From the IMG/VR virus record IMGVR_UViG_3300037585_000599, positions 1 through 24,004 of that record: 24,004 nt of DNA, one strand, 5' to 3'. The translations under genes and the position numbers were made by a program. Below, piece after piece: positions 12,352 to 20,357 of the stretch. Source of the DNA: a virus. A model generated the notes under the pieces. It searched no databases, was not told the DNA's origin, and was given only the letters and a program-made list of their open reading frames with translations. Each line of letters begins with the position of its first letter. Positions within the stretch are counted from its first letter, which is position 1.

Positions 12352-13234
12352 CTTCCTCCCTAGGATTATTAACTTCAGTATACCATACCCATTTAGGAGT
12401 AAGTGCTTTAGATTGTTGTTGAGGTAAATGTTTTAACTTTTCTCCCCAACAAGGTTTTTTATATGCACAAAATCTACATTGCAATGGTAATATTTTATTA
12501 CCTGTAGCTTTTCTGTTAAAGTATTCATCTTCATCTTTAAATAGTCTTTTAAATGGGGCATTTGAATTTAACGCTTCCATATTATCTTTAGCTTTCTTAA
12601 TAGCTTCTTGTGAATGGTGGTCGTCTGACAATGGTGTTTCGGTTACTGCCCATTCTCCTGTAGATTTATTAATAGCAATCCACCCTCCAAAGTCTGTATT
12701 TTCTGCATTAGAATATAGATATCCTTGAGATACATATCCAAAAGTATCCTCTTTCAGTATAGCATCAAAACCTCCTTCATCACTAAATTTATGTTCAAAT
12801 GCCCAGGGCGATGCACTTTTAATATCATATATTTTATTTTGGATTTTAATATCATATGTTCCAGAAATTTCTTCGTTATTATCAAATTTATATTTAACAT
12901 GTTTCTGAATATCATCTACTTTAATTCCTGAAGCTTTTAGTATTGCTACTGCTGCAGCTTCAATCATATCACCAAATAGGTTTCTCATTTTCGTATTGTA
13001 AGGCATGGGTTCTGGCTCTGCTCCAGATTTTTCCATTTGTAATTGGCAAAGAGGTCTGCCTATACTTGACATGCGTGTTGTAAATTTATTATCACGCTGT
13101 TCAGTAAACTGCTTTTTAAAAGCATCTTTACACGCTTCTCCAAACTCATTCACTATCGTACTAGATACACCCACAGAGGCTTTGTTAGCCTCTGTGAGAA
13201 ACATTTGTACTCTGTTTAAAATAGAGTTTGACAT
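12335..13234 (-). CDS. Cas4/RecB-like Fe-S exonuclease
   Basis: The 299-aa protein has the RecB-type nuclease motifs GDMIEAAA (G88, E92), SGTYDIK (D128), YDIKS (D137, K139) and a downstream Q170xxxY. Four cysteines are arranged as in Cas4, AddB and related nucleases: one upstream (C63 in GRPLCQ) and three downstream (CRFCAYKKPC; C253, C256, C262), expected to hold a [4Fe-4S] cluster. It probably degrades host DNA or processes DNA ends for recombination, as the phage exonuclease. It starts in a TAATG overlap with the putative ssDNA-binding protein gene, consistent with co-production. There is no CRISPR array or other cas gene nearby, so an adaptation role is not supported. Confidence 0.87.
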   Translation of the reverse strand: MSNSILNRVQMFLTEANKASVGVSSTIVNEFGEACKDAFKKQFTEQRDNKFTTRMSSIGRPLCQLQMEKSGAEPEPMPYNTKMRNLFGDMIEAAAVAILKASGIKVDDIQKHVKYKFDNNEEISGTYDIKIQNKIYDIKSASPWAFEHKFSDEGGFDAILKEDTFGYVSQGYLYSNAENTDFGGWIAINKSTGEWAVTETPLSDDHHSQEAIKKAKDNMEALNSNAPFKRLFKDEDEYFNRKATGNKILPLQCRFCAYKKPCWGEKLKHLPQQQSKALTPKWVWYTEVNNPREEDGHTK

Positions 13235-14091
13235 TAGTTGGCTAAGAACTCCTCTGGACTGTCTTCTGCCACAGCTTCTACGATCTTAGCACTAGCATCA
13301 TCTCTTACACTAGTAGCATTAGCTTGTTTCCATTGCTCTGCAATCCTCTTATTCTCATCTTGAATTAACTCATTAAACATATCCATATGCTCAAGGTCTT
13401 TCTTAGAAAATTCAACTTGCTTACTATCAGTATCAATAGATGCTACATAGAACGTATTACTTCCACTCTTCTTTCGTTTAGTGGTTAAGTTTAGCACATG
13501 ATTGAACATCAAACTATTTCTGCCTTTTAATCCTTTTAGAGTTTCTCCAATAGGTTTAAAATTCATACCTGTTACACGCCATAAAACAGGCATTTCAGTT
13601 ACAGTTGTTGCTGTACCATCTGCTTTAGTACACTCCATGCTAAGTAGCCCATACACTAATCTGTAGCATTTTATGTTTCTTTGTGCGTCTACTTCGGCTT
13701 CAGTAAGTTGCTCTTTATCTTTACCAATAACTTTTCCGCATCGTACTCCCCCTTTTGTGTCAATAGGCTCATCTTTCCATGATTTAAAGATTACTGATGT
13801 AGAGGCATATTTGTTAGCATCTGCGTCATATTCCATGTATTGATAAGCGTTAATAAATGGTCGAAACTGTACTGCTGTATCTTTTAAGCTATAGACTTTA
13901 GCTTCTGATTCAGGATCGTAAATATTATATACCCCTGCTCTCAAGGCATTCCCATCATCATCTTCAGCAGCTCTGTTTATTGCCAATCTTGGCAAAGTAC
14001 CAGACCCCATTTGAGATCCGTCATCTTGCCCTGTCATCTTCATTATCTCTTCGTTAGAAAGAGACTCAAAAGGTTTTACTTCATTACTCAT
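13234..14091 (-). CDS. Putative single-stranded DNA-binding protein
   Basis: This 285-aa protein has an N-terminal segment with TLPRLAINRAAEDDDGNAL (residues 32-50), a beta-rich middle (about 50-215) and an acidic, helical tail ending AVAEDSPEEFLAN. Proteins with this opening occupy the ssDNA-binding slot beside the polymerase in marine podoviruses, as far as I recall. A true OB-fold cannot be shown by eye, although an acidic tail is typical of phage SSBs that recruit partners. It has its own sigma70-like promoter (14124-14152) just upstream and a strong ribosome site (GGAGG, seven bases before ATG), fitting a protein needed in bulk. It heads the nuclease operon. Confidence 0.55.
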   Translation of the reverse strand: MSNEVKPFESLSNEEIMKMTGQDDGSQMGSGTLPRLAINRAAEDDDGNALRAGVYNIYDPESEAKVYSLKDTAVQFRPFINAYQYMEYDADANKYASTSVIFKSWKDEPIDTKGGVRCGKVIGKDKEQLTEAEVDAQRNIKCYRLVYGLLSMECTKADGTATTVTEMPVLWRVTGMNFKPIGETLKGLKGRNSLMFNHVLNLTTKRKKSGSNTFYVASIDTDSKQVEFSKKDLEHMDMFNELIQDENKRIAEQWKQANATSVRDDASAKIVEAVAEDSPEEFLAN

Positions 14092-14123: not shown

Positions 14124-14152
14124 AATATACCACATATATTAGTCTTTGTCAA
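14124..14152 (-). promoter_or_regulatory. sigma70-like promoter for the SSB-nuclease operon
   Basis: On the minus strand, TTGACA (14152-14147) is followed after 17 bases by TATATT (14129-14124). The -35 box overlaps the stop codon of the polymerase gene. A start site near 14117 would give a leader of about 25 bases containing the GGAGG ribosome site of the putative ssDNA-binding gene. Confidence 0.75.
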
Positions 14153-16185
14153 TGATAAATTGTAGTGTCTAACCAATTTGGTCCAACCTTTATCTCAACC
14201 TCTAATGGAACATCAAAATCAACACTATACCTCTCCATAAGTTCATCAACCACACCCAAACAACCTTGTGTTAAACACTCGGCTACTATTTGTTCCTCAC
14301 CAGGAAATACATCAGCGACTATAGAGTCATGCACTGTGTTGATTAAGATGCTCTTTGTGCCATTGCTCTCTAGCAATTTTTGAGAAAGGATACATGCTAG
14401 AGGAACAATGTCAGCAGTGGCTAAGCCTTGCACAGGATAGTTTTTTATCTGTGTTGAAAAGCTTGAGCCACCCCATGGCATGCGTTCTGCACTTGGAAAA
14501 GCGTACTGCCTACCTGTTGGTAGAGTTATGACTTTATGTCGTATTGCCTCACTTTGCAGCTTATCATGCCAAACTTTTATGTCAGGGTATTTTTTTAGAA
14601 ATTCTGTATAGTATTTCTTTTCATCTTCAGTCCCTGACATCCCACCATACAAAGGTTTAAATGTGTGCGCTTTAGCTTGTTGCCTGGAACACCCTATTGT
14701 ATCAGCAGTAAATTGATGGACATCAACGCCATCATTAATATCTTTTAGTCCTTGTTTGTCTTGTGCTAGAAAGACAGCAGTTCTAAATTCTAATTGTGCA
14801 AAATCTATCTCCATAATATTTCCATTATCAAATCGTGAACGAATAACTTTTCGTATTGGGAAAGTACCACCTCTTGGTTGATTTTGGAAGTTTGGGTCAC
14901 GACTAGATAGTCTGCCTGTTGTTGTAATACATTGCATAAAGTTTGGATACAAATAATTAACTTCTGTTTTATGCTTTTTAATACCTTCAACAAAAGTTTT
15001 TAAGTATGTATCTAAAGCATTGTACCTAGATATCTTTTCTATAAAATCTCGCAATTCTTCATTACCTGTTTTTGCCACTTTGAGTAAAGTATTTTTATCA
15101 GTTTTAAAACCGCCTTCAGCAATATCCATAACAGATTCTACTTTAGCATTAAATCCTGCTCTTTCTTTTAAATTTTTATAAATAAAACCTTTGCCTCCAC
15201 AATCCATACACTTAGTAAGATTTTTATAAGGGTCTCCATTAACTTTATACTTTTGTATATGCCCTTTTCCATTACAAGTAGGGCATTGTTGTGCTTTAGT
15301 TTTATACACAGGTTGTAAAAACATATCAAAAATCTTTCTCATTTCTGTTTTAGAATACTGATATCTTCTCTTTGGCTTCTTTGTAAATGGGTCTAATCCT
15401 AAATTAAATTGTACAGACCATTTCTTTTTGTCAGTAACCTTTGCTCCATAGATTAACCAGGACAATTGCTCTGGACTAGAAGGATTTATAGAAGTATCTC
15501 CCATTTTTTTATATATAGTTTCATCAATTTCTACACGAAGTCTGTCTTGTTCTTCTTGGAAATCCTTTTCTACTTGTTTTAATGCCTCCTCATCAATGTA
15601 AATGCCATTGTTTTCCATATTAGCTAATACAACTAGAAACTCACACATCATCTTAGTACTTTTTATTAATTTTTTATTCTTAGGTATCTTAAACTGTTCT
15701 ATTTGGGCATCAAACAATGATCGTGTTGATTTTATATCAAATCTACCATACTCTTCTAGCATTCCTATAGGCACATTCTCAAATGAGGTCTTGTTTTTGA
15801 TAAACCCTTCCATTAAATCAGACTTTTGCGTAACATTTCTTCTAACACAGCAATCTTTTAGCTTTAAACTGCGTTTTAAGCCTCTATTAAGCATATATTC
15901 GCCTATCATGGTGTCATAGACCCTGCCTGAGTAAGAAAATCCAGATTCCCATAACCAAATTAAGTCAAACTTTATATTGTGACCAACTAATAGAGTAGTT
16001 TTATCTAGTATACCTTGTACCCTCTTTCTATCAGGAGTTCCCCTGAACTCATTATGCTTAAAAAAGATATAGTCATCATTCAAACCCATACAAATTAAAA
16101 AGTTGTGTGGGTTTTTTGCTGATGGGTCTAGTTTACCTTCATCAGTTACTTGAAAGCTAGTCTCTACATCAAATGTAGTGATCAT
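14149..16185 (-). CDS. polA-like: Family A DNA polymerase with DnaJ-type zinc-finger insertion (HMO-2011 type)
   Basis: The 678-aa replicative polymerase has a 3'-5' exonuclease domain: Exo I FDVET (D6, E8), Exo II HNIKFD (N70, D74) and Exo III YGRFD (Y146, D150). Polymerase motifs follow: TTGRLSSRDPNFQNQP (422-437), motif A DFAQLEFR (D461), motif B RQQAKAHTFKPLYGG (R501, K505, F509, Y513) and motif C VHDS (H619, D620, S621). Between them, residues 301-334 hold two CxxCxGxG half-repeats (C301/C304 and C326/C329), a partial DnaJ zinc finger. This is the known signature of the HMO-2011 phage group. F509 aligns with E. coli Pol I F762. Motif C has Ser where Pol I has Glu (HDE). It overlaps the helicase gene by four bases (ATGA). 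Confidence 0.96.
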   Translation of the reverse strand: MITTFDVETSFQVTDEGKLDPSAKNPHNFLICMGLNDDYIFFKHNEFRGTPDRKRVQGILDKTTLLVGHNIKFDLIWLWESGFSYSGRVYDTMIGEYMLNRGLKRSLKLKDCCVRRNVTQKSDLMEGFIKNKTSFENVPIGMLEEYGRFDIKSTRSLFDAQIEQFKIPKNKKLIKSTKMMCEFLVVLANMENNGIYIDEEALKQVEKDFQEEQDRLRVEIDETIYKKMGDTSINPSSPEQLSWLIYGAKVTDKKKWSVQFNLGLDPFTKKPKRRYQYSKTEMRKIFDMFLQPVYKTKAQQCPTCNGKGHIQKYKVNGDPYKNLTKCMDCGGKGFIYKNLKERAGFNAKVESVMDIAEGGFKTDKNTLLKVAKTGNEELRDFIEKISRYNALDTYLKTFVEGIKKHKTEVNYLYPNFMQCITTTGRLSSRDPNFQNQPRGGTFPIRKVIRSRFDNGNIMEIDFAQLEFRTAVFLAQDKQGLKDINDGVDVHQFTADTIGCSRQQAKAHTFKPLYGGMSGTEDEKKYYTEFLKKYPDIKVWHDKLQSEAIRHKVITLPTGRQYAFPSAERMPWGGSSFSTQIKNYPVQGLATADIVPLACILSQKLLESNGTKSILINTVHDSIVADVFPGEEQIVAECLTQGCLGVVDELMERYSVDFDVPLEVEIKVGPNWLDTTIYH

Positions 16186-17393
16186 TCCTCATACCTCGAC
16201 AGTTCTGGGATTATATTGCATGGTATCATTCCATGCCACCCTGTTATCTTATTTTTAGTTATATTTAATCCTCGTAGATTTTTATCCATGTCCACCTTGT
16301 CTCTATACCCTACGCCTATAATAATATCTGCTTCTGCAGCTTTTCCTGTTTTGCTATTCTCCATCATATCAAAGGTTATGTCAAGTTTACCTTGAGCATC
16401 AGCAGATGCTTGAGAGATCGCAATCACACAGCAATTGTTTCTTTTGGCAATCTCCCTAGCACCTGTATATATAGCCCTAAGTTTTTCATCAGTACGAGCA
16501 AAGTTTCCTGCAACTCCAACTTTATCTAGCTGGTCAATTACGATTATATCAGGCTTTTCTTGCGCTACTAACTTATCTACTTTAACTAAATCCCAATCAA
16601 CAGTATCTAATATCTTTACATTTTCTTTGATCTCAGCCCATTTCCTATTGGCTAGGGCAGTATCGTTTTTTATTTCTTCAAATGTCATACCAGTATGCGC
16701 ATTGATTAGTCTCATTTGTGTCCTGATGGCAGGTTCTTCATTTATCAGAGCACAAACTTTTGCACCTTGTGATGCAAAACCATTTATTCCTGCAATAAGG
16801 TTTACCCAAAATGCAGTCTTACCACTTTCGGGGCGAGCAAATAATATAACTAAATTGCCTTCACCAATACCATGTACACGATCTTGCAATGGCTTTAGGT
16901 TAAATTTAAACTTAGTATTGTCTTTCAATTGTTCCACTAACTCACCCACATCAGAAGTAATATATTCATAGTTGTCACCTTCATCATCAATAGATGACTC
17001 TAAACACTTTTTAATCTCACTAAAATCTGCCTCTTTTCCATTATAAATCTCCGTAGCTAATACAGCAATTTTATTTGCTTGTCTTCGTTTATACAACGAC
17101 TCTAATATATTGTTAGCTATTTTTTCATTAGGTAAAGAGGCAGATTCTATATCCTCAATCAAAGATTGAAAATTTTGTTTTGCTACCCTAGTTAAAGCAG
17201 GATTATCAACATCAGTATACAAAGTTGATATCTCATTTAATGTTAGGTCATTATCTGAGTCTATATGCGCTTTAGCTATTGTGTTATACAAATCGCCTGT
17301 GCCATTTGTAAATAATTCTTTAGATAACTTTGCTTTGTTTTTTGTGTAAAACTCTTTGCTAAGTAATAATTTTATAAGTTCTTTTTCTATCAT
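16182..17393 (-). CDS. DnaB-type replicative helicase
   Basis: This 403-aa protein has a helical N-terminal domain (residues 1-140, beginning IEKELIKLLLSKEF) like the DnaB N-terminus, and a RecA-type ATPase domain. The latter shows Walker A ARPESGKTA (186-194), a catalytic-glutamate segment INEEP (217-221), Walker B DIIVID (282-287) and a sensor-like VIAISQAS (323-330). Near the end NITKNKITG (377-385) resembles the DnaB C-terminal basic loop. It would unwind the fork for the adjacent polymerase. It contains no primase domain; the primase is a separate gene at 19532-20320. It starts in a TAATG overlap with the Zn-ribbon gene. Confidence 0.9.
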   Translation of the reverse strand: MIEKELIKLLLSKEFYTKNKAKLSKELFTNGTGDLYNTIAKAHIDSDNDLTLNEISTLYTDVDNPALTRVAKQNFQSLIEDIESASLPNEKIANNILESLYKRRQANKIAVLATEIYNGKEADFSEIKKCLESSIDDEGDNYEYITSDVGELVEQLKDNTKFKFNLKPLQDRVHGIGEGNLVILFARPESGKTAFWVNLIAGINGFASQGAKVCALINEEPAIRTQMRLINAHTGMTFEEIKNDTALANRKWAEIKENVKILDTVDWDLVKVDKLVAQEKPDIIVIDQLDKVGVAGNFARTDEKLRAIYTGAREIAKRNNCCVIAISQASADAQGKLDITFDMMENSKTGKAAEADIIIGVGYRDKVDMDKNLRGLNITKNKITGWHGMIPCNIIPELSRYEE

Positions 17394-17626: not shown

Positions 17627-18580
17627 TTATATATTCATACCTTTAAGTATATGCGAAATAACATCTATTGTCCAACCATTTCCTAGCATCTTATATCTTT
17701 GTGTATTCGATACACCCTCTGTATACCCAACAGGTACAGTTTGCAATCTTTCGCATTCTGTGACTGTTAGCTTTCTCCATCTATCTTTATTTATATCATA
17801 TTCTGTACTTATGTCAACTTTCGGTTCACGATTACCTCCACCCATACTATTTAATGTAGGTGCCTTACCATCAGGGCTGTATATTCTTTTTAGAATATCA
17901 TGTCCATTTATATCTGATGCCATACCGACCAGGGTACACCCATTATTGCCTGCACCTTTGTACATTGTAGCAGTCATACATAAACCTTTTTGATCTGTTC
18001 TTCTAAAGTGCCTAGCATTTCTAGGATTAACAGGAACTGCAGCTTCGTCTGTTTCTTTATCTAAAATATCTTTTAAGAGTATTCCTTTGTCTCCGATATC
18101 TTTATTGAAAGGTATATTAGTCCAATATAATCTTTTTCTACTTTGTGCAGATAATAAACTTGAATTTATCTCTATTGGTTTTACTCCCATATATTTAGTA
18201 ATAATATCTTGAGCATCTTGTTTCATTTTTACATTTTCTAACAAGAACCATCTTGGCTTTGTTTCTTCTTTTACTCTGATAAATTCAAAAAATAATTTAC
18301 TTCTTGGATCATCAAACTTTAATTGCTTGCCTGCAAAACTAAAACCTTGACATGGTGAGCCACCTATCAGCAAGTCTATATCCAGGTTTGTTGCATCTAA
18401 CTTAGTGGCATCACCTACATGAACTATATCAGGAAAGTTTTTCTTTGCTATCTTCATAGCATATTTATCTATTTCAGATGCATAGTACTTTCCTACTTCT
18501 ACTCCTAAATTTTTTAAAGCTATCTGACCGCAAGACATGCCATCAAATAGCGATAAAACATTAACTTTACTTTTTATCAT
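17627..18580 (-). CDS. DNA (cytosine-5)-methyltransferase
   Basis: The 317-aa enzyme shows C5-methyltransferase motifs in order: motif I FDGMSCGQ (12-19), motif IV GGSPCQGFSFAG (P76, C77, Q78; C77 is the catalytic cysteine), motif VI ENV (115-117), motif VIII QSRKRLYW (146-153) and motif IX-X RYKMLGNGW near residue 295. The target-recognition region between VIII and IX is short. No cognate restriction endonuclease lies nearby, so it is an orphan enzyme, probably protecting phage DNA from host restriction. The ribosome site is AGAAAGG before ATG. Its start is overlapped by the small gene at 18567-18716. Confidence 0.93.
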   Translation of the reverse strand: MIKSKVNVLSLFDGMSCGQIALKNLGVEVGKYYASEIDKYAMKIAKKNFPDIVHVGDATKLDATNLDIDLLIGGSPCQGFSFAGKQLKFDDPRSKLFFEFIRVKEETKPRWFLLENVKMKQDAQDIITKYMGVKPIEINSSLLSAQSRKRLYWTNIPFNKDIGDKGILLKDILDKETDEAAVPVNPRNARHFRRTDQKGLCMTATMYKGAGNNGCTLVGMASDINGHDILKRIYSPDGKAPTLNSMGGGNREPKVDISTEYDINKDRWRKLTVTECERLQTVPVGYTEGVSNTQRYKMLGNGWTIDVISHILKGMNI

Positions 18581-19363: not shown

Positions 19364-19539
19364 TAGTACCACCCTGTATCTATAGCGTTATCATTAAACT
19401 TGTTTTCTAATGACTGAATTACATTTTCTTTCATTTGTATTTCTTTAGGTAGTGAATCGTTCTCTATCTTTAAGTATTTAATCGCCCAGGCTAATGCTGT
19501 GGATTCTTCTTCTGTTAGTTTTAAGTACAGTCTATGCAT
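19363..19539 (-). CDS. 58-aa helical hypothetical protein
   Basis: This reading frame was reconstructed by hand: MHRLYLKLTEEESTALAWAI, then an amphipathic helical stretch with EIQMKENVIQSLENKF and a C-terminal TGWY. No family is recognised. Its ATG lies eight bases inside the end of the primase gene, and its TAA is interlocked with the next ATG (TAATG). An AGGAG ribosome site is visible upstream, inside the primase gene. Composition and packing support a real gene. Confidence 0.68.
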   Translation of the reverse strand: MHRLYLKLTEEESTALAWAIKYLKIENDSLPKEIQMKENVIQSLENKFNDNAIDTGWY

Positions 19540-20320
19540 TTAGTATCTCCTTTATTTGTTTTTCGTTGTAGTATTTTAAATCGTCTTCTAATATCTTGAC
19601 TTCTGTATTAACATAATACCTTAATTTTCCGCTTATGTCAAATGATTTAGTTGTTGCGTCCCGGTCCAATGCAACAATAACTTTCTTAAACTTTTTTTTA
19701 AGTATCGGTATGTAAGTATCTGGTAAACTTGTACCCATCAAAGCTACGCCTGTATATACACTTGATACAGCACAGGCACTTGCACAATCTTCTACCAGGA
19801 TTGCAGTATCACTATCTCCACAAATAAATGGATAAGTCTTACCACCATACATATACCATTTAGGATATACTTTTGAAGTTAATGCCCTACCAACTGCACC
19901 TAAAATCTTTTCTTTGTTTTTTATTAAGAATACAATTCTGTGTTGCTTTACATCATACATGAAACTTGCCTTTGCTTTTTGTTTGGCTTGTATACAATTA
20001 TTTTTTTTAAGATAATCATAACATTTTTGCTCTGATAAAACAGAAATAAAACTTGTTGGTAATACAAAAGGCTTTTCTTTTTCTTGCTTTGCTTTGTTTT
20101 CTGTCACTACGGTTTCTGCCACCTGTTGCATTGACATCTCCACTTCATGTTTTCCATGAGCAGAACATGATGCACTAAAGCAATACCATTTTAATTCTGA
20201 CTGCTCTCGCTTGACTACAAATGTGTTGGAATGATGACAGAATGGACAATCAAATCTCATGTCTAAATCACCTTGTGGTATTAATGTTTTTACTATTGTT
20301 AGCTGTTGATTATAATTCAT
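19532..20320 (-). CDS. DNA primase (zinc finger plus TOPRIM)
   Basis: With ATG 20320 as start, this 262-aa protein has an N-terminal CHC2-like zinc finger FDCPFC...WYCFSASC (C25, C28, C47, C52). A linker follows, then a TOPRIM catalytic domain with VED (E177) and ALDRD (D219, D221). It would lay RNA primers for the family A polymerase. In T7 these domains are fused to the helicase in gp4; here the helicase is a separate gene at 16182-17393. An upstream in-frame ATG at 20341 was rejected because it lies within the promoter, upstream of the -10 box. ATG 20320 lies only nine bases past that box and lacks a ribosome site, so the transcript may be nearly leaderless. Confidence 0.88.
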   Translation of the reverse strand: MNYNQQLTIVKTLIPQGDLDMRFDCPFCHHSNTFVVKREQSELKWYCFSASCSAHGKHEVEMSMQQVAETVVTENKAKQEKEKPFVLPTSFISVLSEQKCYDYLKKNNCIQAKQKAKASFMYDVKQHRIVFLIKNKEKILGAVGRALTSKVYPKWYMYGGKTYPFICGDSDTAILVEDCASACAVSSVYTGVALMGTSLPDTYIPILKKKFKKVIVALDRDATTKSFDISGKLRYYVNTEVKILEDDLKYYNEKQIKEILNA

Positions 20321-20329
20321 TGTTTTAGG

Positions 20330-20357
20330 AGTATAGCACATATTTGTACTTTGTCAA
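20330..20357 (-). promoter_or_regulatory. sigma70-like promoter for the replication operon
   Basis: On the minus strand, a consensus TTGACA (20357-20352) precedes TATACT (20335-20330) with a 16-base spacer. It lies immediately downstream of the terminator at 20366-20402 and upstream of the primase, so it would restart transcription for the primase-helicase-polymerase block. The -10 box is nine bases before ATG 20320. Confidence 0.78.

Follow-up and report, generated by a model that had tools for sequence, protein, structure and literature searches.

The window analysed here is the whole of a 24,004-base virus record, a 24-kb fragment whose G+C content of 33.8% falls inside the range of 31.9–35.4% published for HMO-2011-type subgroups thought to infect SAR11. 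On its minus strand lies an open reading frame (ORF) for a family-A DNA polymerase with an insertion that carries two CxxCxGxG motifs. The polymerase and its parts are as follows.

14149–16185, minus strand: family-A DNA polymerase ORF of HMO-2011 type, 678 aa, ATG to stop.
15691–16185, minus strand: 3′–5′ exonuclease domain, approximately residues 1–165, from a Pfam DNA_pol_A_exo1 match just under the cut-off and alignment with Klenow and T7.
15448–15675, minus strand: first half of the thumb (helix H and the NPSS helix H1), approximately residues 171–246, from alignment with the Klenow sequence SSTKQLQTILFE.
15106–15447, minus strand: thumb insert between helices H1 and H2, residues 247–360, from loop lengths and the model of the insert.
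15160–15306, minus strand: putative zinc-finger module with a two-strand stalk, residues 294–342, from the strands modelled at 294–300 and 334–342 and a Pfam DnaJ_CXXCXGXG match at 296–337.
15262–15285, minus strand: first putative zinc motif, CPTCNGKG (C301/C304), residues 301–308, its cysteines invariant in 73 aligned rows.
15187–15210, minus strand: second putative zinc motif, CMDCGGKG (C326/C329), residues 326–333, its cysteines invariant in relatives.
14152–15099, minus strand: remaining thumb (helices H2 and I), palm and fingers, residues 363–678, from Pfam DNA_pol_A.

The polymerase is flanked by a helicase gene (16182–17393), with a primase gene (19532–20341) nearby. Between these two, which are adjacent in Pelagibacter phage HTVC033P, the window carries a C-5 cytosine DNA methylase gene upstream of the helicase (17627–18580; Pfam E = 3.7e-44). 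Just downstream of the polymerase is a 285-aa ORF with no Pfam match (13234–14091), and an ORF of equal length, gp24, occupies the matching position in HTVC033P; on position alone, it could be a single-strand binding or partner protein.

The reading frame, the Pfam matches and the motif positions bear out the original prediction of a polymerase at this locus with C301/C304 and C326/C329 motifs. DNA_pol_A covers residues 355–672 (E = 4.8e-48; 164.4 bits against a cut-off of 34.3), DnaJ_CXXCXGXG (PF00684) gives E = 4.4e-6 and 27.3 bits, below its curated cut-off of 32.7, and DNA_pol_A_exo1 gives E = 1.2e-4 and 22.4 bits, slightly below its cut-off of 23.6. Alignment with Klenow and T7 locates the DEDDy-type proofreading residues (D6, E8, D74, Y146 and D150), the aspartates of motifs A and C and the O-helix residues (D461, R501, K505, F509, Y513 and D620), and, as judged from sequence, the exonuclease and polymerase motifs of the 678-aa protein are both intact. 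Motif C reads HDS rather than HDE, with a serine (residue 621; 14323–14325) at the position of Klenow E883; the same motif is found in the polymerases of HMO-2011, CRP-738, StenR269 and Vibrio phage 1.015.O.

Among marine phages, the HMO-2011 type is a dominant group and one of the most abundant. Their polymerases are known to be marked by a partial DnaJ central domain with two CxxCxGxG motifs, described as lying between the exonuclease and polymerase domains (PMC6918029, PMC9038755), and this two-motif domain, together with homology over at least 80% of the length at no less than 25% identity, serves as an inclusion criterion for metagenomic genomes (PMC9038755). By these standards, the window polymerase is an HMO-2011-type DNA polymerase; its nearest phage records are HTVC033P, at 58.5% identity, and HMO-2011, at 41.5%. 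The enzymes of this group (HMO-2011, HTVC033P, CRP-1, CRP-2, CRP-3, CRP-345 and others) have the same full architecture with both motifs in the same place, and differ from the window polymerase only by sequence divergence, the motif spacing being 25 or 37–38 residues by subgroup. The claim that the finger marks the HMO-2011 group also agrees with our searches: in the phage collection, HMO-2011-type records were the only good matches to the finger region, and no finger-bearing polymerase was found outside the group. A weak match (E = 0.3), from Pseudoalteromonas phage HP1, proved to be a stand-alone exonuclease that carries a CxxC...CxxC finger at its C terminus (L282:1922–2677). We found no published functional test of the finger. 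The architecture is not new; what is added here is its exact placement in the thumb, the recognition of a single predicted C4 site, the invariant residues and the existence of finger-less relatives.

How strongly is the finger conserved? When the polymerase was shuffled 200,000 times, one CxxCxGxG motif appeared in 209 sequences and two appeared in none. Relatives were taken from IMG/VR by three queries, with none of the search patterns for the window query spanning the four cysteines, and all four cysteines are kept in each of the 203 distinct full-length relatives obtained. The spacing between the cysteine pairs in these relatives is 25, 37 or 38 residues and varies by subgroup, and the first motif is near-invariant while A, T or S frequently replaces the first glycine of the second. 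In a 73-row alignment (A1), no cysteine column apart from these four reaches 90% conservation; a lysine or arginine occupies positions 253, 312 and 314 in all 73 rows and position 295 in 72, K312 and K314 being the two lysines between the cysteine pairs, and the uncharged residues T296, A298, G317 and P319 are also strongly conserved. The finger has a mean net charge of +6.4 in this alignment, or +10.8 per 100 aa, compared with −5.2 for the exonuclease and +0.4 for the palm and fingers, and 56 of the 73 members give a Pfam match to the DnaJ-type module at E ≤ 0.001. Most copies in genome collections come from metagenome-assembled contigs; of six distinct copies checked, five retain the cysteines, and the other is a fragment that begins past them. 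The original prediction had spoken of two half-repeats, and although that count stands, the two motifs together would form one complete four-cysteine site, corresponding to zinc site II of DnaJ (motifs 2 and 3), that probably binds zinc.

The original prediction had called for a structural model of the finger region, and the model obtained is confident: pLDDT is 86–93 in blocks over residues 291–340 and averages 90.8 over the full polymerase, the two strands of the insert make a stalk, and the insert modelled by itself is compact (pLDDT 90.8). Given this hairpin and the conservation described above, the four cysteines are expected to cluster in space. A DnaJ-type co-chaperone combines a J domain with four CxxCxGxG motifs arranged in two zinc sites. 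The window polymerase has two of these motifs, 25–38 residues apart among group members, and a single predicted zinc site, and a Pfam scan up to E = 10 revealed no J domain in it. The likeness to the central (CR-type) zinc domain of DnaJ lies in the CxxCxGxG pairs and in a profile search of PDB sequences, in which the zinc domain of E. coli DnaJ (1exk, E = 0.0097) ranked first, aligned through its motifs 2 and 3, and phage antitermination protein Q ranked second (E = 0.083). Foldseek comparison of the insert with the PDB gave DnaJA2 as the best match (probability 0.97, but with a non-significant E of 0.27), and the zinc modules of UvrA, an unrelated host DNA-repair protein, superpose on it at 1.6 Å over 35 columns (probability 0.92–0.94), again with a non-significant E above 1. 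Matches in a viral structure library were small phage proteins, many of 44–110 aa, and stand-alone phage mini-proteins with a similar module are numerous. None of these fold and profile E-values is strong. Because the matches to DnaJ, UvrA, protein Q and small phage proteins are all weak, the label "DnaJ" denotes a widespread zinc hairpin and carries little functional information, and the chaperone-like partner once suggested for the finger loses ground, given the missing J domain and a zinc module that resembles that of UvrA about as well as that of DnaJ.

On the location of the insert, our analysis departs from the original description of motifs between the exonuclease and polymerase domains: the motifs are as described, but, by alignment, the insert (approximately residues 247–360) is inside the thumb, a subdomain of the polymerase domain, and not between two domains. 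Solved Pol I structures align to residues 60–247 and then again from approximately residue 357. The helices of the first half of the thumb are modelled at residues 173–193, 199–228 and 238–246, the NPSS sequence occupies residues 234–237, and a multiple alignment of phage polymerases, T7 and Klenow puts the insert after the helix that starts with NPSS or NLSS (Klenow H1, a name of our own) and before the helix that starts with FKTDKNTL (Klenow H2). The H1–H2 loop is 117 aa long in the window polymerase compared with 19 aa in E. coli Pol I. T7 gene 5 DNA polymerase is likewise a family-A phage replicase with a thumb insertion, but its thioredoxin-binding loop, to which residues 300–314 belong, precedes the NPSS helix (NPSS at residue 335; the H–H1 junction), whereas the window insert follows it; thus, both enzymes have thumb insertions at different junctions, a call that uses the NPSS landmark because the alignment program misplaced the T7 loop. 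The T7 sequence also differs from the window polymerase in having no CxxC pair. The idea that the finger replaces the T7 thioredoxin-binding loop is therefore unsupported as homology. Nor does the second strand of that idea, the absence of a thioredoxin from the window, help: no thioredoxin-like or SSB-like Pfam match was found among the 20 replication-side ORFs scanned, but T7 takes its thioredoxin from its host, so a missing thioredoxin is uninformative, all the more so in a 24-kb fragment.

Some relatives manage with a short H1–H2 loop and no finger. In Stenotrophomonas phage StenR_269 (StenR269) and Vibrio phage 1.015.O the loop is 23–26 aa, and the polymerase catalytic residues are kept in alignments at about 30% identity, which suggests that the finger is a lineage accessory outside the catalytic core. 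Their exonucleases may differ, as the position of D74 is E in both and that of Y146 is R in Vibrio 1.015.O. A thioredoxin-domain protein is encoded just upstream of the finger-less polymerase of StenR_269 (L092:26–292). Other family-A polymerases enlarge the same junction by other means: many phage enzymes, of ICP2-like, MEP402-like and Autographiviridae types (L090, L091, L094–L097 and L293–L297), have a loop of 55–143 aa with conserved lysines, one of them invariant, and a GKNxG..KTK-like turn, but no cysteines, unlike the window finger. By eye, homology between this lysine-rich insert and the basic turn of the finger looked likely, and it was rejected at an hhalign probability of 0.3%. In ICP2-like Vibrio phages and in Methylophilales phage MEP402, the polymerase is additionally split into two ORFs (L090:2950–5043 and L091:2989–5100) at a point corresponding to approximately window residues 438–455, just ahead of motif A; in MEP402, an acidic ORF of 77 aa separates the two parts. 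A viral-contig search with the ICP2 polymerase returned no relative. On whether the finger arose from a single origin, palm-domain trees did not recover the HMO-type polymerases as one clade, but an AU test did not reject one (p = 0.168), and long branches make the result unsure.

What might a zinc hairpin do in this position? In family-A polymerases, the thumb grips the newly made duplex by its minor groove. In the window polymerase, a replicative enzyme, an insert of about 115 residues extends the thumb between H1 and H2; at its end are a stalk of two strands and a predicted single C4 zinc hairpin, with no other part of DnaJ, and this zinc-stiffened basic hairpin (K295, K312 and K314) would reach along the new duplex, the longer contact raising processivity from within the polypeptide. 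We give an even chance to this explanation, that a zinc-stabilised basic thumb hairpin lengthens the grip on product DNA; sequence, position, conservation and a confident model are in hand, and from them we infer zinc binding, DNA contact and processivity. Precedent comes from thumb insertions that give T7 and human mitochondrial polymerases their processivity and from Lys-rich thumb insertions of plant organellar polymerases, which have been modelled as poised to contact duplex DNA (PMC7699545). By analogy, the lysine-rich inserts of other phages, which lack detectable homology, would back only the site and not the module. Against a grip on the duplex, the invariant lysines could equally serve protein docking, and both of the roles originally suggested for the finger, DNA contact and partner docking, are plausible at the thumb tip.

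Docking is indeed the main rival. The finger could be a replisome platform for a DnaB-like helicase, primase, single-strand binding protein or other phage factor, coupling synthesis to unwinding with DNA contact secondary; the helicase gene directly adjoins the polymerase gene with the primase gene close by, the conserved uncharged residues T296, A298, G317 and P319 fit a specific interface, and the T7 thumb loop also binds the T7 SSB (PMC7699545). Docking would account for the conservation nearly as well as a duplex grip does, and we regard it as possible at roughly one-half the likelihood of the grip. Distinctly less probable is that the finger, without any direct partner, mainly shapes and stabilises the thumb and keeps its long insert positioned. 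Structural stapling is a common role of small C4 zinc hairpins, and the insert is compact when modelled alone; nevertheless, such a role explains neither why K312 and K314, which lie in the turn from one cysteine pair to the other, are invariant nor why E. coli Pol I, StenR269 and Vibrio phage 1.015.O, with loops of 19–26 aa, manage without a finger. Recruitment of a host chaperone or redox factor (DnaK or thioredoxin) as a T7-like processivity partner can draw on the DnaJ-like motif, with 1exk as the best PDB profile match, and on the role of DnaJ in lambda replication brought up by the authors of PMC9038755, but it is very improbable with no J domain, only one of DnaJ's two zinc sites, an insert whose thumb junction is not that of the T7 loop and a similar module in many stand-alone phage mini-proteins.

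Returning to the zinc-stabilised grip on product DNA, we note that the finger is present in every HMO-2011-group polymerase examined here. We tentatively suggest, while considering it somewhat unlikely, that it is a self-contained processivity device, at a thumb junction unlike that of T7, that makes a borrowed processivity protein unnecessary in this group. The limits of the insert (approximately residues 247–360), its invariant residues (the four cysteines, K312 and K314) and its natural finger-less relatives make the function of the finger directly testable. If it is an in-built processivity element, then the finger would represent a second phage answer, at a different place in the thumb, to the problem that T7 meets with host thioredoxin.
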